64,000 nucleotides of DNA, from the IMG/VR virus record IMGVR_UViG_3300044614_002230, positions 1 through 64,000 of that record. The stretch is one strand, 5' to 3'. The DNA is from a virus. The notes under the pieces are model-generated. The model had not been told where the DNA came from, did no database searches, and worked only from the letters and a program-made list of their open reading frames with translations. The position numbers and the translations under genes are program-made. Below, piece by piece: positions 9,593 to 57,357 of this stretch (positions are counted from its first letter, which is position 1; the number at the start of each line of letters is the position of its first letter).

Positions 9593-9612
9593 CCCTACGC
9601 AGTTTGGAACTC

Positions 9613-10329
9613 TTAACCCGGCAGCCCTGATTCACCTGCTTCCAGGCGTTTTTTCACGGATTCGGGTAACCCGCTTTCCCAGCCGTGCTTTTTTGCAATG
9701 CGAATAATATTTTTCATAATCGCCCGGGGATTCTTAGCGCGGCCAACCGAAGACCAAGCTGCCGACACATCCTCGGGTCCGGAGATTGGGAAAGACATTT
9801 CTGGACCGGCGAATTCTCCTTTTACTTCGCCTTTCTTCATTTTCTCCCTCTTTTCAGTCGACCACTCCCGATATTCAGCATCTTTACGCTTTTTATCGCG
9901 ACAAGCAGCACATGTACCGCATTTGCACCCCTCGGCCATGGCAAAGGGTTGAGGGATTGCCATCAATTCGTTATCTTGGGAGTCTCCGGGAGCCGCTTCT
10001 GCAAACGGGTACTCTTTTTCTTTCAGGGATTTAAATTTTTCCGCTCTTGCTTTTTTACGGTCAAAAATTTCTTTCATCGCGGTTGAGCTGTCTGCGTGAT
10101 CGTCGTATAAACGGTTCACAAGGCTTTCCCGCTTTTGACGGTTTTGTTCATTAGCTTTTAGCTGAGTCTCGTTGTGGTGAGACATACCGCCTTCCGCATT
10201 CGGGCTCCACTTCTTACCTGTCTTATTAAGGCGAGCAAGCTGGTCCGTAGTCATGGCATTGCCAGCGTTAATACCGCCCCCAACACCCGGAAGCGAAATA
10301 CCTGAAAAGTCGAGGGAGCTACCGTACAT
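9613..10329 (-). CDS. Putative virion-associated protein, 238 aa
   Basis: The N-terminus is Gly-rich ('SGISLPGVGGGINAG'). The middle is charged and helical, with a four-Cys knuckle CKCGTCAAC near residue 136 that could bind zinc. The C-terminal 60 residues ('EMSFPISGPEDVSAAWSSVG' through 'IIRIAKKHGWESGLPESV') resemble the small helical domain found at the ends of phage prohead-protease and structural polyproteins (pattern: F-P...V...A...G...R...I...I..RA). A TATAAATA box lies only 2 nt upstream of the ATG, so if that box drives transcription, translation may begin further in, for example at Met26. Function unknown. Confidence 0.6.
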   Translation of the reverse strand: MYGSSLDFSGISLPGVGGGINAGNAMTTDQLARLNKTGKKWSPNAEGGMSHHNETQLKANEQNRQKRESLVNRLYDDHADSSTAMKEIFDRKKARAEKFKSLKEKEYPFAEAAPGDSQDNELMAIPQPFAMAEGCKCGTCAACRDKKRKDAEYREWSTEKREKMKKGEVKGEFAGPEMSFPISGPEDVSAAWSSVGRAKNPRAIMKNIIRIAKKHGWESGLPESVKKRLEAGESGLPG

Positions 10330-13233: not shown

Positions 13234-13235
13234 AG

Positions 13236-14063: not shown

Positions 14064-14087
14064 TGGAGGGCTGCAACCGACCCAAAG

Positions 14088-14095
14088 TTTTACCC
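14088..14095 (-). promoter_or_regulatory. GGGTAAAA box, candidate late promoter (phoH)
   Basis: 24 nt before ATG 14063, after the stop of the 66-residue gene. Confidence 0.5.
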
Positions 14096-14104
14096 TTTAA
14101 GAGG

Positions 14105-14305
14105 TCACTCGTGCCACCGTTCAACAAAATCATCGAAGCCACCAGCTCCACCGCAAGGACGCGAATACCGGTTTTCTGGGATATTGTATTGGCTGGCCTT
14201 TGCTTTTTTCAAATACAAGTCAGCTATTGGCGAAGTGGCCAATACTACTGTGCCGTGCTCGGCACGCATAATTTCTTGATTATAGTCTGTAGGATGAATA
14301 GCCAT
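14105..14305 (-). CDS. Small protein, 66 aa, unknown function
   Basis: It fills the space between TerL and phoH, and its stop is followed by a GGGTAAAA box as for other real genes. The sequence 'HGTVVLATSPIADLYLKKAK' and the C-terminus 'GGAGGFDDFVERWHE' look protein-like rather than random. The start lies just beyond a 6-bp hairpin. No family recognised. Confidence 0.55.
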   Translation of the reverse strand: MAIHPTDYNQEIMRAEHGTVVLATSPIADLYLKKAKASQYNIPENRYSRPCGGAGGFDDFVERWHE

Positions 14306-16532: not shown

Positions 16533-17750
16533 TCAACACGGAGGGGGAGGAGCTTGTTGCCCCGTACAAAGTTGACAACCCAGTTTCCACAAGGAATTCA
16601 GAGAAGCAAGTTCGAAATTTTCTTCCTTGATCCAACCTTTACCTTGGGAAGAGTTGCTCACGTAGTAAAATCGACCTTTTTCTGTTTGTGTAAACACCGA
16701 AGTGTTTACGCCAATTAAGGAACCAGAGTCTAAGTAAAGTTGGGCCCCATTAGGGTTCAAAGGGTCGGTGAACAAGTATACGGGGAACCCGCGAGCTACA
16801 GCAAATTCCCCGGTGTTCATACCTTGGAACCAGGTTGAATCTTTGCTGGCCAAGGCACTAATTTCACCGTTACTACCAACTAAATCTTTCCAAAGTTCCA
16901 CTGCATAACGAGCTAGCTTTCTGCCACTATTGCAGAAAAACATTTCTTTAATTGGCTCGTTAGTTTTCTGATCGAAAACTGTAACAACTAAACGTCCATC
17001 CTCAGTATAGTTATTGTTGCTCAGTAAGTAAATGGGTTGATTTAACGGGTCTTTGATAAAAATTGTCTCAGGGTCACAAACAAACACCCAGTCCCCGCTT
17101 TGAGTGAGTTCATCGCTCCAACGAATACCATCACAAAGACTGTAATCTTCTGTAGGCAATTTATCGCCAAAATACCAAGGTAAGTAAATGCTACCTGAGG
17201 CATCGTCTAGAACGCCACCTAGAGGTAACTTTGTTTCCACATTTAGACCGGGGAACAATTGCCTGCAGTCTCCCCTCTGAACGCAAGGGTCAAGAGCAAC
17301 ATATGGTAACTGTTCTTCGATTGTAACAACGTAAACTTGAGTGTATGTATATTGAGACTGATCTGTTAAACCAGTGAATGATTCACTTTGGCAAGTGAAC
17401 GGTTCTATGACATCCACGTAAGCACCAGATGGTACAGCACCGTTTAGAGTTATGAACGCTCCTGCAAGCAACTGAGTGGCAAAATCATGTCCACTTGTCG
17501 TCAAGTAATTCAGACACGACATATTTAGTTCGAACGTCATCTGACGCTCAAACACCATGGGAATTCTATTTTTTACATTGTTTGTGGAACCGGTGTAACG
17601 AACGACAATATTATTTGTCTGCTGAATGACACCTTCATTCTCGATAACATCAGCCAGGCGTAACACATTTACGCCAAGAGGGATAAGAGGACTAGCAACC
17701 AGCGCATCGCACATGAATTGCTCAATTCTCTGTATAGTTGAGAGTTCCAA
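16533..17750 (-). CDS. Tail/neck protein with Mu gp37-like N-terminus, 405 aa
   Basis: The start codon is TTG at 17750, preceded by a strong Shine-Dalgarno (GAGGAGGTG) and a GGGTAAAA box. Residues 1-130 resemble the DUF1834/Mu gp37 family: an opening helix, 'VLRLADVIENEGVIQQTNNI', then 'PMVFERQMTFELNMSCLNYL', which in Mu-like phages lies by the tail-terminator genes. The remaining ~270 residues are beta-rich and Cys-containing ('CVQRGDCRQLFPG'), with short repeats resembling 'IFIKDPLNQPIYLL' and 'VYLFTDPLNPNGAQLYL', and end in a Cys/Pro tail. Probably a neck or tail-completion protein with an added exposed domain. Confidence 0.6.
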   Translation of the reverse strand: MELSTIQRIEQFMCDALVASPLIPLGVNVLRLADVIENEGVIQQTNNIVVRYTGSTNNVKNRIPMVFERQMTFELNMSCLNYLTTSGHDFATQLLAGAFITLNGAVPSGAYVDVIEPFTCQSESFTGLTDQSQYTYTQVYVVTIEEQLPYVALDPCVQRGDCRQLFPGLNVETKLPLGGVLDDASGSIYLPWYFGDKLPTEDYSLCDGIRWSDELTQSGDWVFVCDPETIFIKDPLNQPIYLLSNNNYTEDGRLVVTVFDQKTNEPIKEMFFCNSGRKLARYAVELWKDLVGSNGEISALASKDSTWFQGMNTGEFAVARGFPVYLFTDPLNPNGAQLYLDSGSLIGVNTSVFTQTEKGRFYYVSNSSQGKGWIKEENFELASLNSLWKLGCQLCTGQQAPPPPC

Positions 17751-17774
17751 GTTACACCTCCTCTCTGTAAGTAG

Positions 17775-17782
17775 TTTTACCC
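17775..17782 (-). promoter_or_regulatory. GGGTAAAA box, candidate late promoter (17750 gene)
   Basis: 24 nt before TTG 17750, after the fibre-gene stop; a strong ribosome-binding site lies between. Confidence 0.55.
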
Positions 17783-17786
17783 GGGA

Positions 17787-19442
17787 TTACCAGGATGTTA
17801 GAGCTGCTCGTTTCCAGGTGTTGGCGGCGACGCAAACATAAACGTACTGATCGTCCCAGCAAATACGTCCCGTCTCGCCGGGGGAAGTGGCGGCAAGTGG
17901 AGTGAACTTTTTCGTAATCAGGGAATCGCCAGTGACTTTGGACGCGCCAAACTGAGAGAAACCGGTGATTGTTGTATTCTCACCAGCCAACGTAGCATTC
18001 GAAGACGAAGGGAATGCCAGAAATTTTACACACTCGGTAAACAAAACTTTGCCGGGATCTGTAGTCTTAACGCTAATGATTTGATCGGAACCCATGTCGC
18101 AAGCGTAGAAACCCACAGCCACCGTAACGGTGTCCTCAATAGTTAATCCGCCACCAAAAGTGCAGTCCTCAAACTCAATGAAGCCCTCAGTATTGTTACG
18201 AAGAATAACAGGACCGTTAAAGGTTACGTTGTCAAATGAGTGCCGTCCTTGAGAACCATCAATAATCATTCCTCCTTCGACAACTAGGTCCGTTAGACGC
18301 ACGCGAGTGCTCGTACCTCCGATCAGGACTTTACGGGCGTTCGTTTTATTGCCGACAAAAGCAATCGCACACCCATCAGGGCAGTGAGGACCGACGATGT
18401 TCAAACCGGTGGCACCGTTGATTACCAGGTCTTCCCCACCGTAGGCACCAGTCGCCACGTAAATGGTGTTATAAAGCCCAGCGGCGTCGACTGCTGCTTG
18501 GATGTCTTTGACCGTGGAGTTAACATAAAACGTGTTGCTAACTTCGGTCACGTCGCTCATCGCCTTCCAAACGTTCGCGCTGCCGTCAAAGCTTAAATAG
18601 TCGCCCGCTTGCGCTGCTACCGTCGGCGCTACTACCGCTGCGTCCGCCGTTTTTTGTGCATTGACCGCTGCTGTGTTCGCAGCGTCTGCTGCCGTTTCTG
18701 CTACTTGTGCTTGAGTTTTGGCAGCGTTGGCCATTGTTACGGCGCTGTTCGCTGCGCTTTGTGCCTGATTAGCGTCGTTAATTGCCGTGTCTGCCAGGCT
18801 TTTGGCTCCCGTGGCTTCTGCTTTAGCCTGATCGGCCACAGTTTGAGCATCTGCAGCAGACTGGCTTGCCGAATCGGCTTCGGCTTTAGCTTGTTCCGCT
18901 AAGGTTTGGGCGGCAGTGGCGCTCTCGTTAGCCAAATTTGCTGAACCTTGGGCCTCACCTGCTAGTACAAAAGCCTGGTCTGCTTGCTCACCAGCTTTTA
19001 CTGCATTCTCTTCAGTCTTTTTAACTAGGCCAACCGTTTCGTCGATGGCACCTTGAACGTCTTTAGCAGTTAATTTAGATGTTTCCGGATCGTAATCTAC
19101 GTCTTTAGCTGCTACATGCCCACCAGGTTCTACTGAACCCCATACAGGGTGATCTTTGTCCCCATCCCACATTAAAACTTGTTTATCGAACGGTTTATCA
19201 CCGTAACGCTGGGGATTGGCGAGGTAAGAAGGGTCTAGCCCTGCTTGTGAGAGAGGAAAAGCAAACCACCCTTGACCAGGAACTCCCGGGGTTGTCGTAC
19301 CGTCGAATAGTTTATTCGTGTCACTACCGTCACCAGTGTAAAGAATCTGGTCGGCTAAGTTTATAAAAATTTGTCCAGGTTGTAGAGAGGGGGGCTGTAG
19401 ACCAGGGGTCAGTGTACGGTAGTTCTGAATAGGAAGGCTCAT
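17787..19442 (-). CDS. Tail fibre with Ala-rich coiled coil and beta-helix
   Basis: 551 residues in clear order: a short N-terminal attachment domain ('GLQPPSLQPGQIFINLADQI'), an Ala/Gln/Asp heptad coiled coil at about 145-275 ('ADQAKAEATGAKSLADTAIN'), then a right-handed beta-helix region at about 305-480 ('DIQAAVDAAGLYNTIYVATG', pectate-lyase-like), and a C-terminal tip 'GRICWDDQYVYVCVAANTWK' ending RAALTSW. That last motif is a widespread phage tail-fibre C-terminal domain. Trimeric host-binding fibre is the expected role. It is followed by the gp37-like gene and preceded by another fibre-like gene. Confidence 0.82.
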   Translation of the reverse strand: MSLPIQNYRTLTPGLQPPSLQPGQIFINLADQILYTGDGSDTNKLFDGTTTPGVPGQGWFAFPLSQAGLDPSYLANPQRYGDKPFDKQVLMWDGDKDHPVWGSVEPGGHVAAKDVDYDPETSKLTAKDVQGAIDETVGLVKKTEENAVKAGEQADQAFVLAGEAQGSANLANESATAAQTLAEQAKAEADSASQSAADAQTVADQAKAEATGAKSLADTAINDANQAQSAANSAVTMANAAKTQAQVAETAADAANTAAVNAQKTADAAVVAPTVAAQAGDYLSFDGSANVWKAMSDVTEVSNTFYVNSTVKDIQAAVDAAGLYNTIYVATGAYGGEDLVINGATGLNIVGPHCPDGCAIAFVGNKTNARKVLIGGTSTRVRLTDLVVEGGMIIDGSQGRHSFDNVTFNGPVILRNNTEGFIEFEDCTFGGGLTIEDTVTVAVGFYACDMGSDQIISVKTTDPGKVLFTECVKFLAFPSSSNATLAGENTTITGFSQFGASKVTGDSLITKKFTPLAATSPGETGRICWDDQYVYVCVAANTWKRAALTSW

Positions 19443-25709: not shown

Positions 25710-26974
25710 TTTACAACCTCAATACCAAGTTTCTCTAAAGAACCGTACTCCCTAAGCATAGCAGATTCAGGGTTCATCCAATCTTTTACGTAATTATTAA
25801 TTTGTGAGAAATTTTCCATCAAATTTTGATCCCAGTAATTTGTCAACCAATCTGCAACAGGGTAGTAGGGGTTTTGAGTAATCAACCGTTTGTCTTGAAT
25901 TTCTTGCACTTGGTAATTACCGTTGACCTCAATTAAAGCAAGAGGGCAATACACTGCATTAATTAGTTCACCCGTAGAAGAGGTTACTTGTTTTGGGATG
26001 GCATTTTCAGGGTAGATCACCAAAGAAGCATAAGTTTTAGCATACTGCGGATTAATTTTTTCCGTTAAATATCCGGTAACTTCCAATTTGTTGATAGTAA
26101 TTAACGGAGTTATGCCAGGAGTTTTCCAAGCCACTCTCCAGCCGGACACATACTGGGGGTTGGATAAGTTAAACTCGTAATACTGCCCTTGAGCATCTTC
26201 CTGCACGGTCGAGGTGGCCGCTACAGACCATTCTTCTTTAAATTTCACATACAAAGTAGCAGTGATGGGGAATATTTGATTGACCACTTTCGGAGAGCGG
26301 AGAACTATCCTGCTAAAGGAAGATTCATAAGGGCTTTCCCAACCTAAAGTTGCGGGAGCTAGTTGTACCGGATCCGGCAATGAGGGGTCATAGTTGGTCC
26401 AATAGCGGTCAGGGCTCGTAATGAAAGCATTCACAGGAGGGAAACGCCAAGCCCCGTAAATATCTGTCCCAGCAGTAATGTTAAGAGGTTGTCCTTCCAA
26501 TGAACCGTTTTCAACAAAAGTTTTTTGCAAGTAACTGGCTCTATCAGCGATTAGCTCATACCCGACAAACTGACGCCCGGAACCCAACTCTAAAACCTCT
26601 AAATCTACGATTACAGGGTTGACCTCATTTGTGCCTAATTCCCAAGAAATTTTACCACTACCCACTCCAAGGAATTTACCATCTTGAAAAGTAGAAACTT
26701 TTATACTGTTGGAAGAATCTGCACTGAAACCTGGAGGCACGTAAACATAGCCAATTTCAGTTTCAGCGAAAAAATCTCTTTGATAGGTTTCTCCTATGGC
26801 AGGTAAACGCCTATAAATAGGTCTTCCGTTACCTGTCCATTCAGTTGGCCGTTCCTCTAGTCCAGTGGCTTCAATATATTGTTGTGATAGAACTCTGCCT
26901 TGGGTGTCACGACCTGAGATTTTTGTTTGTACTGTCGGGGGTTTACCCACCGGGGCAGGAAGAGAAAAGGTCAT
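25706..26974 (-). CDS. Baseplate-region structural protein, 422 aa
   Basis: Overlaps both neighbours by 4 nt (ATGA), showing tight coupling with baseplate J upstream and the 975-residue protein downstream. Beta-rich, with jelly-roll-like segments ('SRIVLRSPKVVNQIFPITAT', 'WRVAWKTPGITPLITINKLE') of the kind found in carbohydrate-binding or discoidin-like domains. The C-terminus is helical. In many contractile phages the gene after baseplate J is the P2 gpI-like wedge partner, but the sequence does not show it clearly. Confidence 0.6.
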   Translation of the reverse strand: MTFSLPAPVGKPPTVQTKISGRDTQGRVLSQQYIEATGLEERPTEWTGNGRPIYRRLPAIGETYQRDFFAETEIGYVYVPPGFSADSSNSIKVSTFQDGKFLGVGSGKISWELGTNEVNPVIVDLEVLELGSGRQFVGYELIADRASYLQKTFVENGSLEGQPLNITAGTDIYGAWRFPPVNAFITSPDRYWTNYDPSLPDPVQLAPATLGWESPYESSFSRIVLRSPKVVNQIFPITATLYVKFKEEWSVAATSTVQEDAQGQYYEFNLSNPQYVSGWRVAWKTPGITPLITINKLEVTGYLTEKINPQYAKTYASLVIYPENAIPKQVTSSTGELINAVYCPLALIEVNGNYQVQEIQDKRLITQNPYYPVADWLTNYWDQNLMENFSQINNYVKDWMNPESAMLREYGSLEKLGIEVVK

Positions 26975-29805
26975 AATGCAAGCGTACCTGGACCGTAATT
27001 AGGGGGAGTAAAGGGGTACCGTGTACCAGGGTACCATGACAACTCTGAATTTTGAGTGTAGCTTTCTGTAGCTTCCCAAACGTACAAAAGGTTTTCGTTC
27101 GAACCGGAACGGTCCTTCTTACTTTTAGGGATAATGGTAATTTGAGCCACACCCAGTTTTATCGCGGATGTTACTTTGCCAAGTTGGGACAGAATCGGAT
27201 CTTCGCAGGAGTACATATTAACATAACGAAGAAGATTCTTAGCGTATTCTTCGTTGCGAGGAGTGTTTTCAACGGTGGCTTCAGTCCAATTTCTCACCAT
27301 TTGCTTCGGGGTGAAAGACTTGATCACTCTGTATAAACTTCCTGTCTGTTCTTCGTAGATACTGTCTTCAGCATTTTTTGCATAAGCAGGGTTAAAAAAC
27401 GGAATGTATTCAGTGGAGTTAAAAGAAACGTTTTGCATCGTTTCCGTTTTTACGAATATGCCGCTTTGCTCATATATCCGGAACGCAAATAAAGGACTTA
27501 CGTTCTCGGTCGCTGTATATGAGGTTATGTTTACGCCATCTCTGAAGAAAGTTCGGTCGCCCTTAAAGAAAGTGAACATTCTTGAGGGTTGTTTAACAGA
27601 GCCGTTGGTTATTTGTTGTTGCAAATCGTTTTCTTGTGTCTCACTCGTAGCCAAAGGCACTATGAACCCTTCCCTAACCAATTGGTCAGGGTCATTTACA
27701 AAAGGAGTGAAATATTGAGCAGAAATGTAGTACACTGGTTTGTCTTTTGTGTTTCTCCTGTACTCTAAATACTGGCCCGTTTGAAATCTAGCGTTGTACC
27801 TTGCTAAAGGTAAACCTTTGTCTGCATTTTGAACAATGATTTCTTTTAGAACTTTCTTTGCGACTAAATCGTCAAAGTAATCACTCAAAGTCTCACCGTC
27901 TCTGAGAACAAAAGTGAAGTTAGAATTAACGTAAGCGTATTTATTTACGACGCCTTTTTCCAGGTCAATGTAGTTGTAATAAGGGTCCGCTATGGGATTA
28001 GGTCCGGACCCTATCTGAGGAGTCATGACCCAATCCCCTTCCGAAAAAGTTTGGTTTTTGCGAAACATTTTCACTTCCACTGGGCTGGGGCTCAAGACTC
28101 CAGCAGAAGATGCACCAGTCAAATCGTCTGTAGGTTGCTCTAGTATGAATTCTTTAGCAACCAACCAAACCAGAGTGCCAGGTCTCTTCTCTTGTGGCAC
28201 CGGTTGAGAAGTATTTGATGCCGGCGGAATGTATTCGTCGCTGCTGTAAGTGTACTGAATAATTTGAGGGTCGTAAATGTCGTTAACTGTATCCGAATAA
28301 ATCAACCCTACTTTCCATTCGCTGTAACTTTTAGCTCCCGAAATCAAACCTGATTGAATTAATTGAGGAATCTCCACATAAGAGCTAATAGCCACGTTTT
28401 GTAGAACCACATGCAATTCTGCATCTCCGTCCACTTCGGGAGACCAGAAAACAACATCACCTTGAGCGAATAGCCCTGGAGTCAAGTATTTTATTTGCTT
28501 CAGTACAAGATTGTCATAAATAGTTTGTTTAGATTTTTCTGCAGAGGTAGGTGTAAATGGTGACGTTACTGCGTAATACGTTTTAACTGGTTGACTAACG
28601 TATACCAGATCCCTAGGGTTTAATAGAAAATCAGAAGTTTCGAAAGGCAAAACCTGAGTATAAGTGGCTGCCTCAGGGGTTAGTTCAGCAGGAGTTGTGA
28701 ACGCTGCTGAGGTCACTATACCAGGGTTTTTATAGCGATCGACAGCGTCGAAAGTTGAATAAAAAGCTGAATCTATTTCACCAACAGTCGGGTCGATGTC
28801 TGCCGGGAATACTCGCCCAGGGATAAGAATATTGTTAAGTCTATTTCTGAAATCATTCGAGGCTGTTTTTGTGTCTCCCCCGAAAGCACCTGTAGCGTCT
28901 ATTTCTACTGTTAAATTATATTGAACGTCGCTCAGACTAATTGGGTATAGGTGTGCTTCTAACTCGACCGGAGTTGAAAAATTTAGTACATTTTGGCCAA
29001 CTCGTAATTGCTCCGGAGTTAGTTCAATTCCTCCAGGTCCAAGAACGAAAAAAGAAACTTGGCCATTAGACCTTTTATAGTCTGTCTCGTAATTGTAAGG
29101 CAGTCTACTTGGACGCCCAGGCTGGATAGAGGTTAAAGTTCCGACACCATAAAGGTCTTCAAAAAAGTCACTCCAATCTTCCCCGCTTACAGGGTTTTTA
29201 CGACGAATCAGAGTGAAAAAACGTTCTCTTACATCATCGTAAGACTCAACGTCACTACCACCCACCGCCGGAAGCCGGTTTGTAACGGTTGCTCCGGGAA
29301 TAGTTAAGAAAGATGAATCCGTAATGGACTGGGCAGGAACGTTATACTCTCTTCCTACAAATTGGCTAGCTACGCTGATTGTAGTAGAAATTTGGCCCGG
29401 AGGTATTGTTACATCCGTAGTAGTAACAAATGAAATACTTTCTCCCCCGGTAGCGTTAGGATCGGTAGCGAAAGTGGACCCAACAGGTATAAAAACTGGG
29501 GAGTCTGACGGAGGAATAGTTAGGGTTAATTGAGCGATAGAAGGAGTACCAAGACGCCTCATGGCTCCTAGGAAAGGGCCAATCCACTCCAGCAGGATTT
29601 TCTCAGGTAACTGGTTTGCCCAGAAAAGAAATTCCCCTTGAGCGAATGCTTGACCCTCAATTAAAGCCGCAAGGGGATTACCCGAACTAAAGTCGTTTAG
29701 AGTCTGGTTGGAAGCATCATAAACACGCTGAGAAGCTTCTTGAACTAATTCAGCCTCGTTACGCGGGTCAATAGAAACAACAGGTAAAGGAGCGTATCTT
29801 GGCAC
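26971..29805 (-). CDS. Baseplate J-like wedge protein
   Basis: 944 residues. The N-terminal 330 residues carry the Baseplate_J pattern: 'AQLTLTIPPSDSPVFIPVGS' followed by 'ATGGESISFVTTTDVTIPPG', 'FVGREYNVPAQSIT' and 'DDVRERFFTLIRRKNPVSGE'. P2 gpJ and T4 gp6 family members form the ring that links baseplate wedges. The C-terminal 500 residues are an extension beyond the usual P2 length (about 300) and resemble the long gp6-like versions of large phages. It is co-transcribed with the two genes that follow through ATGA overlaps. Confidence 0.82.
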   Translation of the reverse strand: MPRYAPLPVVSIDPRNEAELVQEASQRVYDASNQTLNDFSSGNPLAALIEGQAFAQGEFLFWANQLPEKILLEWIGPFLGAMRRLGTPSIAQLTLTIPPSDSPVFIPVGSTFATDPNATGGESISFVTTTDVTIPPGQISTTISVASQFVGREYNVPAQSITDSSFLTIPGATVTNRLPAVGGSDVESYDDVRERFFTLIRRKNPVSGEDWSDFFEDLYGVGTLTSIQPGRPSRLPYNYETDYKRSNGQVSFFVLGPGGIELTPEQLRVGQNVLNFSTPVELEAHLYPISLSDVQYNLTVEIDATGAFGGDTKTASNDFRNRLNNILIPGRVFPADIDPTVGEIDSAFYSTFDAVDRYKNPGIVTSAAFTTPAELTPEAATYTQVLPFETSDFLLNPRDLVYVSQPVKTYYAVTSPFTPTSAEKSKQTIYDNLVLKQIKYLTPGLFAQGDVVFWSPEVDGDAELHVVLQNVAISSYVEIPQLIQSGLISGAKSYSEWKVGLIYSDTVNDIYDPQIIQYTYSSDEYIPPASNTSQPVPQEKRPGTLVWLVAKEFILEQPTDDLTGASSAGVLSPSPVEVKMFRKNQTFSEGDWVMTPQIGSGPNPIADPYYNYIDLEKGVVNKYAYVNSNFTFVLRDGETLSDYFDDLVAKKVLKEIIVQNADKGLPLARYNARFQTGQYLEYRRNTKDKPVYYISAQYFTPFVNDPDQLVREGFIVPLATSETQENDLQQQITNGSVKQPSRMFTFFKGDRTFFRDGVNITSYTATENVSPLFAFRIYEQSGIFVKTETMQNVSFNSTEYIPFFNPAYAKNAEDSIYEEQTGSLYRVIKSFTPKQMVRNWTEATVENTPRNEEYAKNLLRYVNMYSCEDPILSQLGKVTSAIKLGVAQITIIPKSKKDRSGSNENLLYVWEATESYTQNSELSWYPGTRYPFTPPNYGPGTLAL

Positions 29806-39341: not shown

Positions 39342-42300
39342 TCAACGATTACCTGTACCAAGACCTTGCAGGTCTAGTTCTTTCTGCATTTGGCCGATGG
39401 CAACGCGAATAAGGTCGATCTGAATCCTTTCCAGTGTTGGAACAGGAGTTACAAACACCTTAGCATTGACAACTCCACTCTCCAGGTTCATGGAATTGTT
39501 AATTCGCTCGTCGCAGATGACTTGGAAGGCATCTGAAGGACGTGCCCCGAACAGAGCACCTTTGACGTACAGTTCGTTTAGAACGCTGTTACCAACGTTA
39601 ACGATCTGGTTGTAAACCACACCGAAACCGTCGACAACGTTAAAGATCTGGTTATCGAAGGCATTACGAAGCGAGCCGTAAACCACGTTCAGAATAACGC
39701 GGGTGTTTACGAACTGGTACAGACGCTGCTGAGCATCGGCTTCGTTGATACGAGTACGACCACCCCAAATAAAGATTGAATTTAGGGGGTACCCAGGCAG
39801 GTTACGGATAGCGTTACAACCCTTCGGATTCAGCAAGTTCTGCTGAGCAGAGTTGATCGGAATCTGAGCCGCTACGGCATCCGAGAGCTGGTATTTAGCG
39901 CCAGCAGGCGGGAATTGGTAACCTTCGGAACGGTAACGACGAATTGCAACCCCGGTAACGTAAGGCGAGGGAGGAATCCACTGCCCACCGGCATTTTGGA
40001 TGTAAGGACCATAGTAGGCAATAAATCCAAGGGGATGCTCGTAACGTTGGCTGTCTTCCAGGAGACGAGTAACGTTATCAACACCGGCTTCTACGAACAC
40101 TGCTTGAGGCACACCATTAAATCCGACCCCTCTCAGAGCTTCGTCAATGATGTTGGTCGAGGTAACAGCATCAAACCTCCAGAGGTTTGCAGGAGGAGTT
40201 TGCTCAGGCAGGAACGAGATTTCTACGGTTGCGCCGTAGCAAGGCTGACCTGCAGCAATAATGTTTTCGTCTTGTCCAACAGCGTCCGGTTTTACAACCA
40301 TCCAAGTCACTGCTACACCGTCAGAAACAGCAGCAAGTCTATCGCCTTTAGCAACGTTTGTCTTGTCGTCAGGAGCCAGACCGTCGCTGGTTACATTGAA
40401 ATAAACACCAACCAGCTTAGAGCGCGAAGCTTGAACAGCATCAGCGGTTGAACCATTGCTTAAGCCCGTTGCTAAGACATAAGGAGTTACATTAGCTAAT
40501 GTACCATTTGAAGCCAGAGCAATCCCGGCAACATCGGCTTCGAATCCGACGCATCCTCCGATTGAAGCGGAATTCAACTCAAGTTGATCGCCAATCGCGT
40601 AACCACTTCCACCGGCAACAACAGTAACGTTGCTAACAACACCGCCAGTAACAGTAACAGTTACGGTAGCATTTTGACCGAGGCCAGTCTTGGTCACAAC
40701 AGGTACGCTAACGTACTGTCCGTCAGTACCACCGGTACCACCGTTTGTAACGGTTAGCGATTGCAGAGGACCCACGGCCGGACCACCACCGGCATTATAA
40801 TCACCACCCGGAATGGCTTGCAGGGAGGGAACCAGATAAGCTTCTGTGGAGAAACTTTGCTTTGTAGTAGGAACGCAATAGAAGTTTTCCACGAAAGCGG
40901 TTTCGTCACCAGGATCAACCAGTTTGAGTTCTGGCAGGTAACCAGCCGTGGTGTTTTCACCCCAGGCAGAGATTTGACCCTTACCAAGAACTTGGGCGCT
41001 GTTATTTAACCGGATGCTAACTTTAGGAGCAGTCAGCGAAGGAGCAGGAGCGACTTTAGAGTCTCCAGCAATGTTGTCAATCGTACCGCTAGCGAATCCG
41101 TACTTACGTCCACGTAGGAAAGGAATGTTAGTAAGTTCAGTAAGGTTAACAGCTGTTTCGCTTCCACCGAGAACATTCGTGTAAAAAATAGTCGGGCTGG
41201 AAACAATAGGAGCTGAAGGGAACAGAACGTAACTACCGGCATTTAGAGCAGTCAGGCTTGTTGACAGTACAAAACTATCGACAGACAGCTGTTTCACAAA
41301 ATAGTCGAAGGTTACAGCTTTTGTGGTAGCTTTAAAAATGTCAATTCCCCCTGCTGTAACAGGTTGCGTGAAGTAGACTTTTTGTCCATCCGTAAGGCCG
41401 TGATCGACACAGTTAATTACGGCAACGCCAGCAAGTCCAGGAGACGTAGAAGAAGTAATGGAAACTTTAGGATCATAAATTGTACGACTCTGGAAGCTCA
41501 AACGGTAGTTAGTTGTTGAACTTTGAAGCGTTGCAGGAAGGTGCAAGGTGTTGACACCCACAACCGAATCCGATACGCTTTGAATCAGGTCTGAGGATTG
41601 ACCGTTAATTAAAACCTCAAAATCCCATGCTGGGGTTTCGTAACTGATTTCACAGGCTCCACTTCCACTCGGGAAAGCAACAGCACCGGTAGGCAGTGTA
41701 GTGACTGCGCTCGAACCACCTAGCAGTTCAACAGAACGAAGAACAATAGCTGCTTCAGCCGGAGTCAAAGCAATAAAGGCATAATTTAGATTGTAATCTC
41801 CAAAATTTTTCTCATCAAATTTAGGAGCAATCAGATAAACGGATTTACCGTTGATAGCATGGAACGGATTGGTTGCATCCTCTGCACCTGTAACGTTCAC
41901 CTTTTGAATTTTCTTGTCTACAGGCCAATAATTGGAATTGTTAAACAAGATACGGCCAACAGCACCATTGTCCACATTGGCAATGTAGACCCCGGAATCA
42001 AGAATACCAATTTTTGTTCCAGGAGAAACAGTGTTGGTAGATTCTGTGACCGCTGTTTCAGGAGAAACACCGAACTTCAGCTCTTGATAATTGAGACGGG
42101 GATGGGTAACTGTAGCACCTGTCCACGTGTAAATGGCGTTGTCTACCAGGTACTTTTGGTTTGTCTCCAGGTCTTCAGCAGCTTTATGAGGAGTAAACTG
42201 ATTGTACTTATTAACATCAGTTACGTTGTAAGGGCCGGGATCAGCAATCGCCATCCACTTGTAACTGTTGTTAGCACAATGAGCAGCAGCGGCAGCTCCA

Positions 42301-43244
42301 ATGGCCGACCTTCCTTCCACGTCGAACTGAGCGTAGGCAGTAGGAGTGATCAAGTACCCTTGGTCTTGCTGACCGTCGAAAGCAGTGCTAATGCACTGAA
42401 TATAGTCTTGAGGAACTTTTGCAATGTCTCCTTGCCCCACAATGTTATCAACACTGTAGGTGTTTTGCATGAACACTGCAGTTTGTCCCACGGGGTCAAC
42501 CTGGGTCACAACAGAAACATTCCCTCCCCAAGTAGCGGAAGAGATTGTAACGTAAGCATTCTGAGAGTTAGCGTACTTGACTGGATCCAAGTCGTTGAGC
42601 ATGCCATAGCTACGCACGTACACCGAGCTGCTAACGCTAGGGTTCGATTGCATAGCTTCTGCCACAGCTTTGACAACGGCGGCAGAAATTTTGCGGTTGT
42701 TAGCCGCGTCTCCAGCGATGTAATTAACAGGAATGTTAACAGGAACACCAAGCCACTCACCGTTGGAACTGTACCCAGTGCTGTTGTTACCAGACACTAG
42801 AGGAATACCATTAACGATAATCTGAGCGTACACAACGTCCCCGGCCATCAAGGCTGAAGGAGTGCCTGTGCTGTTGATTTTAGTTCCAGAAGACAGCAGT
42901 TCGATCTCAACCACTTCTGCGGGAGTGCCAACCCGCACTACGCGAAGATCCCCGACTTGAGCGTTTAAGAAAAATTCTTGAACGCAGTTGTAGCTAAGAA
43001 GGGCAATACGGTCTTGGGGAATACTGCCGCCAAGAAGAACTTTATAGTCGTTGATGCTGGTAACTGCAACCGGCGTGTTAAAAGGAAAAACCGTTACAGG
43101 AACGCTATCCTCAACCTCAACCAACATATAAGTTGTGCTGAAGGGAGCAATAGCAGGAGTTCCTAAAATACCTGGGCGCTCATTAATGTAAACGCCAGGG
43201 GCGCCAGGAACAATAGCGCTGTTGCCGAGAGAAAAAGTAGCCAT
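39342..43244 (-). CDS. Tail sheath protein, unusually large (1300 aa)
   Basis: The ATG at 43244 is preferred over the upstream TTG at 43259; either way the sheath start 'GNSAIVPGAPGVYINERPG' is intact. The C-terminal 330 residues ('PPSPYVTGVAIRRYRSEGYQ', 'IFIWGGRTRINEADAQQRLY', 'NSVLNELYVKGALFGARPSD') are the sheath-conserved core that joins neighbouring subunits. Typical sheaths have 400-700 residues; here residues about 130-950 contain large beta-rich, Gly/Thr/Val-rich insertions facing outward, including 'VTVTVTGGVVSNVTVVAGGS'. It forms the contractile outer tube. Confidence 0.88.
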   Translation of the reverse strand: MATFSLGNSAIVPGAPGVYINERPGILGTPAIAPFSTTYMLVEVEDSVPVTVFPFNTPVAVTSINDYKVLLGGSIPQDRIALLSYNCVQEFFLNAQVGDLRVVRVGTPAEVVEIELLSSGTKINSTGTPSALMAGDVVYAQIIVNGIPLVSGNNSTGYSSNGEWLGVPVNIPVNYIAGDAANNRKISAAVVKAVAEAMQSNPSVSSSVYVRSYGMLNDLDPVKYANSQNAYVTISSATWGGNVSVVTQVDPVGQTAVFMQNTYSVDNIVGQGDIAKVPQDYIQCISTAFDGQQDQGYLITPTAYAQFDVEGRSAIGAAAAAHCANNSYKWMAIADPGPYNVTDVNKYNQFTPHKAAEDLETNQKYLVDNAIYTWTGATVTHPRLNYQELKFGVSPETAVTESTNTVSPGTKIGILDSGVYIANVDNGAVGRILFNNSNYWPVDKKIQKVNVTGAEDATNPFHAINGKSVYLIAPKFDEKNFGDYNLNYAFIALTPAEAAIVLRSVELLGGSSAVTTLPTGAVAFPSGSGACEISYETPAWDFEVLINGQSSDLIQSVSDSVVGVNTLHLPATLQSSTTNYRLSFQSRTIYDPKVSITSSTSPGLAGVAVINCVDHGLTDGQKVYFTQPVTAGGIDIFKATTKAVTFDYFVKQLSVDSFVLSTSLTALNAGSYVLFPSAPIVSSPTIFYTNVLGGSETAVNLTELTNIPFLRGRKYGFASGTIDNIAGDSKVAPAPSLTAPKVSIRLNNSAQVLGKGQISAWGENTTAGYLPELKLVDPGDETAFVENFYCVPTTKQSFSTEAYLVPSLQAIPGGDYNAGGGPAVGPLQSLTVTNGGTGGTDGQYVSVPVVTKTGLGQNATVTVTVTGGVVSNVTVVAGGSGYAIGDQLELNSASIGGCVGFEADVAGIALASNGTLANVTPYVLATGLSNGSTADAVQASRSKLVGVYFNVTSDGLAPDDKTNVAKGDRLAAVSDGVAVTWMVVKPDAVGQDENIIAAGQPCYGATVEISFLPEQTPPANLWRFDAVTSTNIIDEALRGVGFNGVPQAVFVEAGVDNVTRLLEDSQRYEHPLGFIAYYGPYIQNAGGQWIPPSPYVTGVAIRRYRSEGYQFPPAGAKYQLSDAVAAQIPINSAQQNLLNPKGCNAIRNLPGYPLNSIFIWGGRTRINEADAQQRLYQFVNTRVILNVVYGSLRNAFDNQIFNVVDGFGVVYNQIVNVGNSVLNELYVKGALFGARPSDAFQVICDERINNSMNLESGVVNAKVFVTPVPTLERIQIDLIRVAIGQMQKELDLQGLGTGNR

Positions 43245-43343
43245 TTTATTTAAAAACAAATCCTCTTTATATCGATTCGCGATGGAGGCGAGGAAGGACT
43301 CCTCCGTGGTTCCCGTAGGATCGCTTACCGAGGCACTTACATG

Positions 43344-52477: not shown

Positions 52478-52969
52478 TTATTCGATTGTTTCTACTTTAT
52501 GTGGGTACTTTTTGCACAAGTTTTCGATACGGGTTCTCATCCCTTTCATCCAACTTTCGTTTTGAGTGTTGTTCCTTGCTGCTCGCCTACGCTCCAGCTC
52601 TTCTTCACTGACTTGCAAACAAATCAAGTTCATGCCAATGTTTTCTTGAAACATAGCATCCATGTTAGGACCATTGCTCAAACGTTCCCCTTCACCGTAA
52701 ATTATCCAGTCCGGAAATTCTTCCGTGGCTCCGAGTAACCATTCACGAAACTTGGGTCCCACACCTTTACTCCAGGTGTCGGTCCCTGCAAACGTGCCTT
52801 CATCATAACGTCCAAGGACGATTGTCTTCTGTTTAAGGAATTTATGGTAAGTTACCAACCCTTCTTTAATGAATTCATCTGTTTCGTTCTCTCGAAGGTT
52901 ATTTAAAATACCGCGCATCAACGTGGTTTTACCGGTTCCAGGTTGACCAATGTAATAAAAGATTTTCAT
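52478..52969 (-). CDS. P-loop kinase, probable 5-hydroxymethyl-dU DNA kinase type
   Basis: 163 residues. Walker A GQPGTGKTT at 8-16 begins the protein. 'GRYDEGTFAGTDTWSKGVGP', 'IYGEGERLSNGPNM', and 'LQVSEEELERRRAARN' correspond to the lid and base-binding parts of small nucleotide-type kinases. The neighbour (ATGA overlap) resembles the alpha-glutamyl/putrescinyl thymine pyrophosphorylase family, with which this kinase class is linked in phages; the known role is phosphorylating 5-hydroxymethyl-pyrimidine in DNA ahead of adduct attachment. Kinase fold is clear; substrate is inferred from context. Confidence 0.68.
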   Translation of the reverse strand: MKIFYYIGQPGTGKTTLMRGILNNLRENETDEFIKEGLVTYHKFLKQKTIVLGRYDEGTFAGTDTWSKGVGPKFREWLLGATEEFPDWIIYGEGERLSNGPNMDAMFQENIGMNLICLQVSEEELERRRAARNNTQNESWMKGMRTRIENLCKKYPHKVETIE

Positions 52970-53907
52970 TGTTTAGGGTTGTAATGGTAATGCAGGGTGC
53001 CGTGGTTTAAAAACAATTCCATTTTAGCTTTATCTTCACGGGCGTAACGTGGAGCCAATACATCGCCAACAACTTCTCCACGAGCTTGCCAAATTACGTT
53101 CCAATCGATCCCGTGCCAGTTATCATTTTCAGCTTTCATAACTTCTTCTGATTGCCGGTCAAGGTAATAGCCAACGTAACGGCCTCGACTGGTTCTCCAG
53201 AGCTTTTTGTAAGCACAGAGTGCGGTTTCCATTGAGAAGTTGTCGAATTGGGAAGCAAGCAATGGCCAACGCTTGCGAGCTTCCAGCAAAAGTTCAGCAC
53301 CAGCTATTTCTAAGTAAGCGTACTCTTTGCTGGTCAATTTTTGGTTGACCCATTCGTCTTTCCCGAGCGCATAACACAACCCGTTTCTGTGAGACTTGGA
53401 TCCTGAGTAGTCACTTAGTAGTAATGTTGGGCAATCAATATTGATGCCACACGTGTGTTTTAATGTTTGTAAGTAAAAAAATGCGGTGTAACGTCCGAAC
53501 TTATACCATTCTCCTTTTATAATTGCCCAGAGTCGTTCAAAGTTAACTTCCGGCTCCTCCGTACAAATTCGGTCAAACACAGCTTTTTGTGAAGACCCGT
53601 GAACCCAATCACAATACGATTGGTACATGGCTGGCAGGTGCCCTTTTGACCACTTCGTGTCAGTTTGATAGCGCAATCGTGTATAATTCTCGTTGTTCCA
53701 TTGGGTAAATCTATCTACACTCGCCAACTCCTCATCGGGGAATTCGTTCTTATAAACGAATGCGGTGGGTAAATTGTATGTGTGATACAACCATGCAAAC
53801 CACAAACGTTCTTCCACCGAGTATTCATACCGGTCGTTCAGGTATTGGATCAACCAGAGTGCAGGATCGCAATCCCCGGAAGCCACGCTTGCTGCGTAAA
53901 ATTGCAA
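52966..53907 (-). CDS. Alpha-glutamyl/putrescinyl-thymine pyrophosphorylase-like (clade 2) protein
   Basis: About 313 residues if translation begins at TTG 53907 behind GAGGG; an ATG frame opens at 54039 but its first 30 codons lie antisense to the phosphatase gene and look unconserved. Residues (from the TTG) around 'DPALWLIQYLNDRYEYSVEE', 'RLWFAWLYHTYNLPTAF', 'NEFPDEELASVDRFTQWNNE', 'YKFGRYTAFFYLQTLKHTCG' and 'SKSHRNGLCYALGKDEW' match the pattern I know for helical aGPT-Pplase2-type proteins of phage base-hypermodification loci. That family attaches amino-acid or polyamine groups to activated hydroxymethyl-uracil in DNA. Recognition by eye; substrate unknown. Confidence 0.65.
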   Translation of the reverse strand: MQFYAASVASGDCDPALWLIQYLNDRYEYSVEERLWFAWLYHTYNLPTAFVYKNEFPDEELASVDRFTQWNNENYTRLRYQTDTKWSKGHLPAMYQSYCDWVHGSSQKAVFDRICTEEPEVNFERLWAIIKGEWYKFGRYTAFFYLQTLKHTCGINIDCPTLLLSDYSGSKSHRNGLCYALGKDEWVNQKLTSKEYAYLEIAGAELLLEARKRWPLLASQFDNFSMETALCAYKKLWRTSRGRYVGYYLDRQSEEVMKAENDNWHGIDWNVIWQARGEVVGDVLAPRYAREDKAKMELFLNHGTLHYHYNPKQ

Positions 53908-53943
53908 AAAACCCTCAGATCTTTGACTTAATTCACGGTAATC

Positions 53944-54354
53944 ATGACCAACGTTCTTTTTGTTTGTACTGGCAACATTAACCGCAGCGCCGCCGCACAC
54001 ATTATCTTGGAGTCTCATAGTAGCAGTTATAAAGTTCAATCATGTGGCACCGGGAAAGTCGCTCCGTTAGGTAAAAAGGTCCCCAGCAAAATGCGTATGG
54101 CCCTGGAAGAATTGGGATACAATCCCAACAATCACCGCTCTCAAGGTGTCTCCGAAGAATTGCTTGCCTGGGCTGATAAAATCGTGATTATGGGCAACGC
54201 CCACGAGAAATTTATCACAGAGCATTACCCTCAGTACCTTACTAAAATAACCAATTGGAACGTTAAAGATCCTCACTTTGCTACTGGGAATGAGCTGCAT
54301 CGTAAGGTGGCCAAAGAAATTGAAGTCAAAGTTAATCAGTTATTTGTTGAATGA
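53944..54354 (+). CDS. Low-molecular-weight protein tyrosine phosphatase-like
   Basis: The only plus-strand gene. 136 residues with the P-loop V-C8-TGNINR14-S (C-x5-R-S) at the N-terminus and the general-acid loop 'VKDPHFATGN' with Asp109 in the DP motif. LMW-PTPs cleave phosphotyrosine; relatives include arsenate reductases and wall-polysaccharide phosphatases. It is wedged in the modification island: its 3' end overlaps the amidoligase stop by 23 nt (convergent), and its start is 36 nt from the proposed aGPT start (divergent). Opposite orientation suggests recent insertion or independent control. Its target may be a protein, or a phosphorylated intermediate; unknown. Confidence 0.85.
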   Translation: MTNVLFVCTGNINRSAAAHIILESHSSSYKVQSCGTGKVAPLGKKVPSKMRMALEELGYNPNNHRSQGVSEELLAWADKIVIMGNAHEKFITEHYPQYLTKITNWNVKDPHFATGNELHRKVAKEIEVKVNQLFVE

Positions 54355-55270
54355 CCTTCACAGTTTCCTCGGCAGTGCAGTTATCGATATCTAAATGTTT
54401 ACGCAGATCGTTGATACGGGTTTCGGCAACTTTCCGAGAATTTTTATCAAAATTAGTGTACTGATACCCGCACTCCATTGCAAAATCAAACGGGGCAAAC
54501 TCAGGGAAATCATAAGAGTATGCCGAAAGCAATTCTGAAACAAGGGCATCATTCAAAGCCCCCTCGATAAACTTCGCTACCCACACAAAACAGGAGGCTA
54601 ACTTTTTAACATCAAGAGTGTTCGTAAAATGGCGAAATTCAACGGTGTCCGTTTCTTGCAACTGTAACAAGTTGATGCCAGCTCTTGTTGTTAGTCCATA
54701 TGCTCGTTTGTTGTCAGTCTGCAATTTTGAGTGAGCATCAAAGAACTCGCGCACCGTTGTTGCTTGCATCGCCTCAGCAACTCTCGCAGCAGGCACCTTA
54801 TATTGGTGAGAAACTTTACGTCGCTTGTAGCGTTTGAGAGCACCCTTATAGGCTTCTTCGCTGAAGTAATCTTCCCTCAATGGTACCGGAATTGGCTCAA
54901 TTGCTGCATAAATTTGACCTTGATTCGCATCAATATACGCAAGCAATTTCTTGAGAGATTTTAAATCCTCCGACAACCCTGGTACACAAATATGTAAATG
55001 CAAGTTTGTTCGGTGGTTGATAGCAGCTTCCGGATGTCGGGCAATCAACAACTCAAACATTTCAAGTTGTTCAGCAAAGCTATCGGTAGGCGCAGAGTTA
55101 ATCTCTCCTCCGCGTTGGTACGCTCGCCCTTTAGGGTCATTTGCGATCCCGGTTGAACTTACGATTGAGTAATCTTTTTCGTTCCAAGTTAGCCCTTGAG
55201 GTAAATCACTCCTCCAAATATCACCAAACTCGTATTCTGCCCCGAACGTTACGTTCTTGAGGTCAATCAT
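54332..55270 (-). CDS. Amidoligase (COOH-NH2 ligase family)
   Basis: 312 residues. 'TFGAEYEFGDIWR' at 8-20, 'GGEINSAPTDSFAEQLEMFE' near 54-73, 'NHRTNLHLHICV' near 85-96, and 'DTVEFRHFTNTLDVKKLASC' near 212-232 form the signature of the amidoligase family (glutamine-synthetase-like fold: G-x-E-x-E-F, E-I/V-S-x-P, G-x-H-x-H, E-F-R). Such ligases form amide bonds using ATP. It starts in an ATGA overlap with the class II glutaminase, so ammonia or an amidated product is probably passed between them. In a hypermodification island it may build the adduct. Confidence 0.8.
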   Translation of the reverse strand: MIDLKNVTFGAEYEFGDIWRSDLPQGLTWNEKDYSIVSSTGIANDPKGRAYQRGGEINSAPTDSFAEQLEMFELLIARHPEAAINHRTNLHLHICVPGLSEDLKSLKKLLAYIDANQGQIYAAIEPIPVPLREDYFSEEAYKGALKRYKRRKVSHQYKVPAARVAEAMQATTVREFFDAHSKLQTDNKRAYGLTTRAGINLLQLQETDTVEFRHFTNTLDVKKLASCFVWVAKFIEGALNDALVSELLSAYSYDFPEFAPFDFAMECGYQYTNFDKNSRKVAETRINDLRKHLDIDNCTAEETVKVIQQITD

Positions 55271-55926
55271 GGAATCAGTTCCTCAACGTTTGTTATTTTA
55301 GTGCCACCTTTGGGAGTGTAAATCCACCCCGGTTCGCATCGCCGTGGTCGTTTCAATCCTGCACGCAGAGCAATGTCTGATGTTGAGCAGATAAATACAC
55401 CGTTGGGTACACGGTTGAAGTACAAAGGGCGTTTCCCGTTGCGATAAAACCGCAACCCATCGGAGCCCAACTCGGCAACTGCCATACTTGCTTCAGGGAA
55501 CTCTTTCAGCGGTTCTTTCCCCGCATGTCTTGCTTGGTATAGTAACTCGGAATCGTTACTTGTTGCTAGTTCGTAACCGTGCTCGCCCCAATAAACAGGT
55601 GGCCTTTGATCGACAACACCGTTGTGGGCAAGCGCCAAGTCTTCAAAAATATGCAAAGGTTGATTGAATTTAAGGTCGCTCGTCGAATACCTGCAATGGC
55701 CAATCAATTGCAAAGTGTAATCACCAGGCTGCACCTCTGCGAAATGACTTTGCACGAAAGTTTCCGCAGGGACAGGCGCAACTTGAGTGAAGATTCGCTT
55801 ATTGCGAACCAGAGAGTAACCACTTGCGTGTTTTCCTCTAATCTGGGACTCGACAAACAATCGTTTCAGGGTCTGAATTTGTTCTTCAGAAGGCGAGTCA
55901 AGGTAACAACCAACTATAGCACACAT
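55267..55926 (-). CDS. Class II glutamine amidotransferase
   Basis: 219 residues with the N-terminal nucleophile Cys2 (MCAIVG), 'RGKHASGYSLV', 'IGHCRYSTSDLKFNQPLH', 'LALAHNGVVD' and 'SNDSELLYQ', the sequence of landmarks of GATase II glutaminase domains (as in PurF, GlmS, AsnB). It lacks any synthetase or isomerase domain, so it should supply ammonia to a partner, probably the overlapping amidoligase downstream. It follows the TET/JBP gene directly, with no gap. Confidence 0.88.
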   Translation of the reverse strand: MCAIVGCYLDSPSEEQIQTLKRLFVESQIRGKHASGYSLVRNKRIFTQVAPVPAETFVQSHFAEVQPGDYTLQLIGHCRYSTSDLKFNQPLHIFEDLALAHNGVVDQRPPVYWGEHGYELATSNDSELLYQARHAGKEPLKEFPEASMAVAELGSDGLRFYRNGKRPLYFNRVPNGVFICSTSDIALRAGLKRPRRCEPGWIYTPKGGTKITNVEELIP

Positions 55927-57357
55927 TCATTTCTCCGTATACCAGTAATTAGTGCGGGAAGCGTTAGGGCAATGTTTTGTTCTATACTCGTCCCACTCGT
56001 CGCTGACCCACATAGCAGGAAACACTCCACTGAATTTGCCTCCATCGTTTTTCTGATAGCGGTCTGCGTAGTTGGCTTGAGAGTATGCAATGAACTGTTT
56101 ACGGCAACATTCTGACCTGTAATCATCTAGTTTAGCCATGCCATCCCGGGCGTAATAAACTTGAATGATACTTTCGGCGTCCCCGGTTTTGTCTATCATT
56201 TCAGTTTGCCCGTGAACGCGATTGCAGTTGTCACCAACAAAGAAATCTCCGTGGCGAATGTCAAACGCTAAGCCAAACTCAGCCATTACAAAGTATTGTC
56301 CGTCGTATTTCTCGCCAGGGTATGCTTCATTAGTAATGTTTGTAAGAACTGCTACTCCTCTAGGGTTATTTTTACCATCTAGGTGCCAGAAGGTAGAGAA
56401 GTTATAGTTGATTGTAATTGTGGAGAAAGTTTTAGTACCTAGTAGCGTGTATAGATCTTCTTGGCAAGGCTCCATAAGATCATGGATATAATTCCACTCT
56501 TCTGGCATTGTGTCTCGGTACATATCCGAGACTTGCTGATACAAAGATTTATGAGCCTCAAAATCTTTTCGCCTTTTTTCCGTAGTGGCTGACAAGCGAC
56601 CGAAAGGATTTCGGGCAGACCTGTCCATAAAACCGAGGATATTGCTATATACTTTATTCGCTCGAGTCTGAATGCTGACAAAGTTCTTGTAAGAATCTTT
56701 AGCGAACTGAACTTGATCTTCTTCTTTAGCCCAATCAATCAACCAATTATCAAACCACTCCTGACGCAGTTTATCACGTTCAGCCAAGGCGGCATCTTTC
56801 TCTGCTTGAGGTGTGGCTTTCTTGCGAAGAAGAGACTCCAACGCCAGGATCTTCTCTCCATCTACGTAAGGGGAGTTCAGCAGTTTCTTGACATACAAGG
56901 AGAACCGCGAAGCTCCGGTCTGGCTAGCGACAATCTCTTTCGCTTCCTCAATTGTTTTGACTTTACCTTTCGTGGCAGAGCGAAAGAATGCTACTTGGCC
57001 GTTGGTAAGTCTGGCTGAAGTATCGGTAACGAGCTCTTTACCTCCTACCAAGCCACGTTGATCGGACAGTAGATCTTTACTGACCCAACGCCAATAGTTG
57101 AAACTGTCGGAATCAGGAGTGATTTTAGTAATCTCTGGCAACGCATTGCGCAGAAACACAATCGCTCGTTTACCTTTTAGATACACAATCGTGTTATCTC
57201 GAATTATACGGTTGCTGTCATAATCGGTTTCATTGGGGCGATCTCCGATCCGTTCTTTATCGAAAGGGATCAGTTCATCTATTTCAATCACTTCACACTC
57301 ATAAGTGCCAGTGCAAGTTTTGAGGGTTTCAGTGTTGGTTTTAACTTTGGCAGTCAT
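55927..57357 (-). CDS. TET/JBP-like 2-oxoglutarate/Fe(II) dioxygenase
   Basis: 476 residues. The double-stranded beta-helix core lies at about 310-405: 'TITINYNFSTFWHLDGKNNP' gives the H325-x-D327 iron ligands, 'YFVMAEFGLAFDIRHGDFFV' is the JBP/TET-type strand pair, and 'NRVHGQT' gives the distal iron ligand His382. The N-terminal 'DQRGLVGG' is like the small motif before the core in JBP-type proteins, and an inserted helical segment fills about 130-300. The family oxidises the methyl group of thymine (JBP) or 5-methylcytosine (TET) in DNA. In this island it would supply the hydroxymethyl pyrimidine used by the kinase and adduct enzymes. Base specificity not readable. Confidence 0.78.
   Translation of the reverse strand: MTAKVKTNTETLKTCTGTYECEVIEIDELIPFDKERIGDRPNETDYDSNRIIRDNTIVYLKGKRAIVFLRNALPEITKITPDSDSFNYWRWVSKDLLSDQRGLVGGKELVTDTSARLTNGQVAFFRSATKGKVKTIEEAKEIVASQTGASRFSLYVKKLLNSPYVDGEKILALESLLRKKATPQAEKDAALAERDKLRQEWFDNWLIDWAKEEDQVQFAKDSYKNFVSIQTRANKVYSNILGFMDRSARNPFGRLSATTEKRRKDFEAHKSLYQQVSDMYRDTMPEEWNYIHDLMEPCQEDLYTLLGTKTFSTITINYNFSTFWHLDGKNNPRGVAVLTNITNEAYPGEKYDGQYFVMAEFGLAFDIRHGDFFVGDNCNRVHGQTEMIDKTGDAESIIQVYYARDGMAKLDDYRSECCRKQFIAYSQANYADRYQKNDGGKFSGVFPAMWVSDEWDEYRTKHCPNASRTNYWYTEK

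Follow-up and report, generated by a model that had tools for sequence, protein, structure and literature searches.

What does a phage build when it encodes an amide ligase beside enzymes that modify the bases of its own DNA? The question is raised by a gene cassette at positions 52478–57357 of a 64,000-nucleotide viral sequence (positions 1–64,000 of the 65.7-kb IMG/VR record IMGVR_UViG_3300044614_002230; hereafter the window), which encodes a TET/JBP-type dioxygenase, a class II glutamine amidotransferase (GATase), an amidoligase, a low-molecular-weight (LMW) phosphatase, an amino acid:DNA transferase (ADDT), and a P-loop kinase. This six-gene set most likely converts thymine in the DNA of the phage itself to a bulky base whose side chain contains an amide. 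We assign a probability of roughly 0.5 to the specific reading of a post-replicative thymine-hypermodification cassette that ends in an amide-bearing thymine. A preliminary description of the sequence had proposed a thymine-hypermodification island with a glutaminase–amidoligase element, a proposal that fits all tests run here, with thymine favored by the exchange of TET for a thymidylate synthase (TS)-like enzyme in related loci. All five genes it listed were found in place on the minus strand with their families confirmed; the sixth, the phosphatase gene on the plus strand, had been overlooked.

The TET gene (55927–57357, minus strand, 476 aa) matches Pfam Tet_JBP with an E-value of 5.9e-12 (45.6 bits against a cut-off of 34.9), carries the H-x-D...H iron site noted earlier, here placed at H325, D327 and H382 and invariant in aligned TETs, and yields a model (pLDDT 81) whose fold matches CcTet, NgTET1, CMD1 and TET2. 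Its family assignment rests on domain, iron site and fold, and its predicted reaction is oxidation of thymine to 5-hydroxymethyluracil (5hmU) in DNA. The TETs of the window and loci L002 and L003 belong to an S-CBWM1-like subfamily, unlike those of most cassettes of the same type; separately, two tandem S-CBWM1-like TET genes (3319–4809 and from 4788) lie upstream of one cassette in L011, and likewise in L012. The ADDT gene (52966–54039, minus strand) encodes 357 aa from a TTG start, with the true start possibly downstream, and its product matches PF18724 (E-value 4.9e-20, 72.7 bits against a cut-off of 26.2) and phrog_3271 (1.1e-55); the protein had been called aGPT-like, and the family match stands while the name is corrected, aGPT-Pplase2 being the old name of ADDT. 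An ADDT search of viral contigs returned only close relatives of the window, and the enzyme is predicted to displace the (pyro)phosphate of activated 5hmU. The adjacent gene (52478–52969, minus strand, 163 aa) encodes a predicted 5hmU-in-DNA kinase, as first proposed, with a PF18751 Ploopntkinase3 match (E-value 3.5e-11, 43.4 bits against a cut-off of 27) and a conserved P-loop (G8..G13K14). We rejected the PHROG label of terminase small subunit for this kinase as a misannotation. The same label is found on 5hmU-type P-loop kinases in phrog_800, Pseudomonas phage PaMx11 (gp49; L104 3718–4287) and Caulobacter phage Cr30 (gp114; L096 17349–17894), where the TET is in turn labeled an SNF2 repair protein, and it is probably an annotation error spreading through phage pipelines.

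The amidoligase gene (54332–55270, minus strand) encodes a 312-aa predicted ATP-dependent amide ligase. The window protein falls below the Pfam Amidoligase_2 cut-off (E-value 0.0023, 18.3 bits against 22), a shortfall offset by an orthologue in L041 that clears it at 26.1 bits, a match to PHROG 2443 (1.2e-6), and a confident AlphaFold model (pLDDT 93.9), so that the original assignment is retained. The best structural matches (Z 9–10) are 1tt4, YbdK, plant and E. coli glutamate-cysteine ligase, and glutamine synthetases; Foldseek E-values are weak (best 4e-3), and the top structural alignments are consistently to the glutamate-cysteine ligase/glutamine synthetase (GCS/GS) fold. Judged from the predicted model, placement in the GS/GCS superfamily holds because the model aligns best with these two enzyme groups, and residues E12, E14, E56, H91, H93, E211 and R213 are invariant. 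The GATase gene (55267–55926, minus strand, 219 aa) encodes a predicted ammonia source with a GATase_6 match (2.9e-7) and the N-terminal cysteine nucleophile noted before: C2, R79, N102, G103 and D125 are at least 95% conserved among 36 dereplicated relatives. The LMW phosphatase (53944–54354, plus strand, 136 aa; PF01451, 1.6e-17) has a C-x5-R-S loop and an Asp-Pro general acid, with C8, R14, S15, D109 and P110 at least 95% conserved among 42 relatives.

The six genes form a compact set. The kinase and ADDT genes overlap by 4 nt, as do the amidoligase and GATase genes, and GATase and TET abut directly, in agreement with the 0–4 nt overlaps reported within each half. A 292-nt gap between the two minus-strand halves is occupied by the phosphatase gene, which extends into the 5' end of ADDT and the 3' end of the amidoligase gene. 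The same gene order is kept in three other viral contigs at 59–76% protein identity. The antisense position of the phosphatase gene is confined to the window clade (window, L002, L003/L013, L004/L014, L011 and L012), and outside it the gene runs in the same direction as the rest of the cassette and in most cases follows the amidoligase gene immediately.

We searched for the amidoligase profile and recovered 79 viral loci, dereplicated to 28 amidoligase clusters at 70% identity, in which cassette genes were called with profiles built in this analysis and representatives were checked with Pfam; the records are mostly fragments, and absences are suggestive only. The phosphatase accompanies the amidoligase in 27/28 clusters, the kinase in 26/28 and ADDT in 25/28. 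LMW phosphatase matches occur in just nine of 50,697 phage records, including that of phage Simon, and this rarity set against near-constant presence beside the amidoligase marks the phosphatase as belonging to the pathway. Two main cassette types emerge. Type 1 cassettes, including that of the window, contain TET, GATase, amidoligase, LMW phosphatase, ADDT and kinase, and type 2 cassettes contain ADDT, an FAD oxidoreductase (DAO), amidoligase, LMW phosphatase, kinase, HMUDK_hel, a TS-like enzyme and, in some cases, Nmad5; phage Simon encodes them in the order ADDT-DAO-amidoligase-LMW phosphatase-kinase-HMUDK_hel-Nmad5-TS. TET and the TS-like enzyme never share one of the 28 clusters, nor do GATase and DAO. 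TS-like and GATase genes are combined in L094 (a metagenome-assembled genome (MAG) contig) and L069 (record G023, TS homologue), and TET and DAO in L095 (another MAG contig), such that all four pairings of hydroxymethyl source and amine source occur and the two are therefore separable. In the amidoligase tree one clade goes with GATase and the other with DAO, and TET/TS exchanges occur inside both. We relied on these swaps in place of mutual-exclusion p-values (TET/TS 0.0098; GATase/DAO 1.5e-4), which are not phylogenetically independent, the GATase/DAO contrast being essentially one tree split. The set, with its exchangeable first steps, recurs in many viral contigs that are unrelated to one another, a distribution suggestive of a DNA modification not yet chemically described. 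The TS-like enzyme that takes the place of TET lies next to 5-hydroxymethyldeoxyuridine (5-hmdU)-kinase domains; 5hmU would then be the common intermediate, and TET would make it from thymine, the likely substrate as judged from these gene exchanges.

From the gene identities, conserved catalytic residues (the TET arginine discussed below excepted), conserved synteny, and interchangeable hydroxymethyl and amine sources, we infer a pathway, with its reactions, their order, the added acid, the phosphatase substrate and the biological role of the whole. TET would hydroxylate the 5-methyl group of thymine in phage DNA to give 5hmU, the P-loop kinase would phosphorylate and so activate the hydroxymethyl group, and ADDT would swap the phosphate for a nitrogen nucleophile, whose likeliest source is ammonia released by the class II glutaminase, to give 5-aminomethyl-dU or an amino-acid adduct. 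The amidoligase would then spend ATP to couple the amine-bearing group, through an amide bond, to a small carboxylic acid or amino acid, and the LMW phosphatase, whose presence suggests a phosphorylated acid or intermediate, would strip a phosphate tied to this step; its substrate could be, for instance, an acyl donor or adduct that carries phosphate. The end product would probably be a base of the 5-(N-acylaminomethyl)-dU type, protecting phage DNA against nucleases of the host. The PaMx11 cluster (gp46–gp51), homologous to the cassette of phage Simon, provides the analogy for the ligation step: it is ordered ADDT-DAO-acetyltransferase (GNAT)-kinase-HMUDK_hel-TS, with solved structures for its first two enzymes (gp46 and gp47), and the type 2 cassette has amidoligase and LMW phosphatase where PaMx11 has the acetyltransferase. 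Because the pair fills this slot, the simplest reading by analogy makes the 5-aminomethyl amine the target of acylation by the amidoligase, which would draw on ATP and a free acid, not on acetyl-CoA; the amidoligase loci examined yielded no PaMx11-like acetyltransferase. In type 1 cassettes GATase would plausibly deliver ammonia for the same amine in place of glycine transfer and a lyase. A broader and more tentative reading, possible though somewhat doubtful, is a widespread, so far undescribed class of DNA bases. Thymine would carry an acyl or peptide-like amide that a GS/GCS-fold ligase attaches with ATP, starting from a phosphorylated building block, and that an LMW phosphatase, acting on DNA or on the precursor, then trims.

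Several observations weigh against the amide-bearing thymine pathway. A serine replaces the 2-oxoglutarate (2OG)-anchoring arginine in the TET clade of the window, and TET base-contact residues fail to separate thymine from 5-methylcytosine (5mC) substrates. In the DAO clade the TET exchange rests on L095, a long branch from a MAG, and the GATase/DAO contrast is one deep split of the amidoligase tree, so the products of the two clades could differ. Some GATase-type loci (for example, L059) have no TET or TS detected in the record. The best-surviving alternative, which we consider rather unlikely, is that GATase works with the amidoligase: ADDT would add an amino acid such as glycine or glutamate to activated 5hmU, and GATase-derived ammonia would be ligated to the carboxylate to give a carboxamide (aminoacyl-amide-thymine). 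Characterized ADDTs do add amino acids (the PaMx11 gp46 structure is deposited as Glycinyltransferase, 8z2m), and the overlapping GATase and amidoligase genes are neighbors in most window-type cassettes. Yet GATase adjoins ADDT, not the amidoligase, in L057, L059, L069, L093 and L094, the amidoligase occurs without GATase in TS/DAO-type cassettes, and the phosphatase is left unexplained. The glutaminase–amidoligase element of the preliminary description stands, but joint action of the two enzymes is not required.

A second alternative, improbable in our view, holds that the TET of the window is degenerate or uses another co-substrate, with a first step unlike ordinary 2OG-dependent hydroxylation. 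Aligned to TET2, the protein has Ser396 (codon 56170–56172) at the position of R1896, the arginine that holds the 2OG C5-carboxylate (PMC7854593); the substitution is confined to the window, L002 and L003, and the arginine is retained in all other aligned TETs. CMD1, among the fold matches, uses vitamin C, and loss of the functional arginine is tied there to loss of 2OG use (PMC7854593). Against this, the iron ligands and remaining fold are intact and conserved, 2OG-binding residues differ among TET subfamilies (PMC7854593), and K329 and R333, specific to the TET clade of the window, lie close to Ser396 and could substitute. By sequence, either these basic residues compensate or the co-substrate or activity differs.

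It is equally improbable that TET oxidizes 5mC and the downstream enzymes work on 5-hydroxymethylcytosine (5hmC). TET-associated glycosyltransferase (TAGT) is a family linked to hydroxymethylcytosine. The nearest relative of the window TET, that of S-CBWM1 (38% identity), precedes a TAGT gene, and L062 and L063 combine TAGT with the cassette, these two and L007 being the only amidoligase loci with TAGT profile matches. The base-contact residues resemble those of 5mC enzymes as much as any others (PMC7854593): positions matching TET2 N1387/H1904 are D/R, N/H or N/R in an alignment of 28 TETs, and recognition of 5mC involves Asp in CMD1 and NgTET1 and Arg in CMD1/CcTet (PMC7854593, PMC11040006). 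Active-site residues were accordingly dropped as a test of thymine versus 5mC. Conversely, ADDT and the kinase belong to families known from thymine systems, and the TS-like enzyme that substitutes for TET does so beside 5-hmdU-kinase domains. As anticipated from the initial reading, no C5-cytosine methyltransferase (PF00145) was matched in the 65.7-kb window record, nor in its relatives, phage Simon, S-CBWM1, or 22 further amidoligase records, with control genomes positive, although the lack of a match in S-CBWM1 makes this absence alone weak; neither was TS (PF00303) matched in the window record or in G000–G003, where TET stands in its place. A defense-system reading was discarded, as PADLOC returned only a weak P-loop match.

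The wider genomes supply further observations. The window is from a contractile-tailed phage, as indicated by genes for a large terminase (14353–16092), a baseplate wedge (26971–29805) and an unusually long, 1305-aa tail sheath (39342–43259), and it also encodes a 627-aa protein (4375–6258) with a weak Pkinase-like C-terminal match (5.3e-5, under cut-off). In L062/L063 (from 6375; L063 is a 247-kb contig), where the cassette and TAGT co-occur, a single genome may combine sugar and amide chemistry. The cultured phage Cr30 (L096) encodes TET, ADDT, a TAGT-like protein, a cassette-type P-loop kinase and myo-inositol-1-phosphate synthase (sites 9001–10329, 12027–13256, 13238–14164 and 17349–17894).

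To our knowledge, the thymine hypermodifications described so far terminate in an amine, an amino acid or an acetyl group, and the roles proposed in the broader reading above for a GS/GCS-fold ligase and an LMW phosphatase would be the first for either family in DNA modification. Literature searches on amidoligases with phage DNA modification, whose coverage did not extend to the main comparative-genomics papers, returned no description of the amidoligase–phosphatase pair or of the four-way exchange. With this cassette the thymine-hypermodification tool kit gains a predicted ATP-dependent amide ligase and a phosphatase, and many viral contigs carry it. The natural exchange of TET for a TS-like hydroxymethylase within one cassette is a genetic argument that a phage TET acts on thymine. 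It also puts direct tests of the adduct chemistry within reach, using a few small proteins and a single named relative, the sewage phage Simon.

Comparison with known systems places the cassette among them. PaMx11 shares an ADDT-family transferase, a 5-hmdU kinase, an hmU-derived thymine modification, and a gene order common to type 2 relatives, and its TS-like, flavin and HMUDK_hel proteins are 40–52% identical to those of phage Simon. It differs from the window in using a TS-like enzyme and a flavin lyase (gp47, deposited as Flavin-dependent lyase, 8z2o) where the window uses TET and glutaminase; the TS-like dUMP hydroxymethylase of M6, ViI and PaMx11-type systems has no PF00303 counterpart in the window record. 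Systems combining TET with TAGT, in S-CBWM1 and Stenotrophomonas phage DLP6, have a related TET protein accompanied by glycosyltransferase genes, not by kinase, ADDT or amidoligase, and the window record lacks their expected pairing of PF00145 and TAGT, a contrast whose methyltransferase half is weak given S-CBWM1. The mycobacteriophage trio (for example, Lolalove genes 2–4), also present in Rhodococcus phage Tonitrus (PMC11955845), places TET/JBP, ADDT and 5hmU kinase genes next to one another, the last of the Ploopntkinase3 family in Lolalove; in actinophages this combination is known, and its annotation there is that of a thymine hypermodification system. A ParB-like gene accompanies the trio, and no amidoligase, GATase or phosphatase is listed alongside. 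The one characterized precedent for amide ligation on a phage DNA base is CmoY of the CmoX/CmoY system in Synechococcus phage S-B43, likewise an ATP-dependent amide ligase acting on a modified base (PMC12783734): CmoY is homologous to asparagine synthetase and has 5-carboxymethylcytosine as its substrate, whereas the cassette ligase has a GCS/GS fold and would act on a base derived from thymine.

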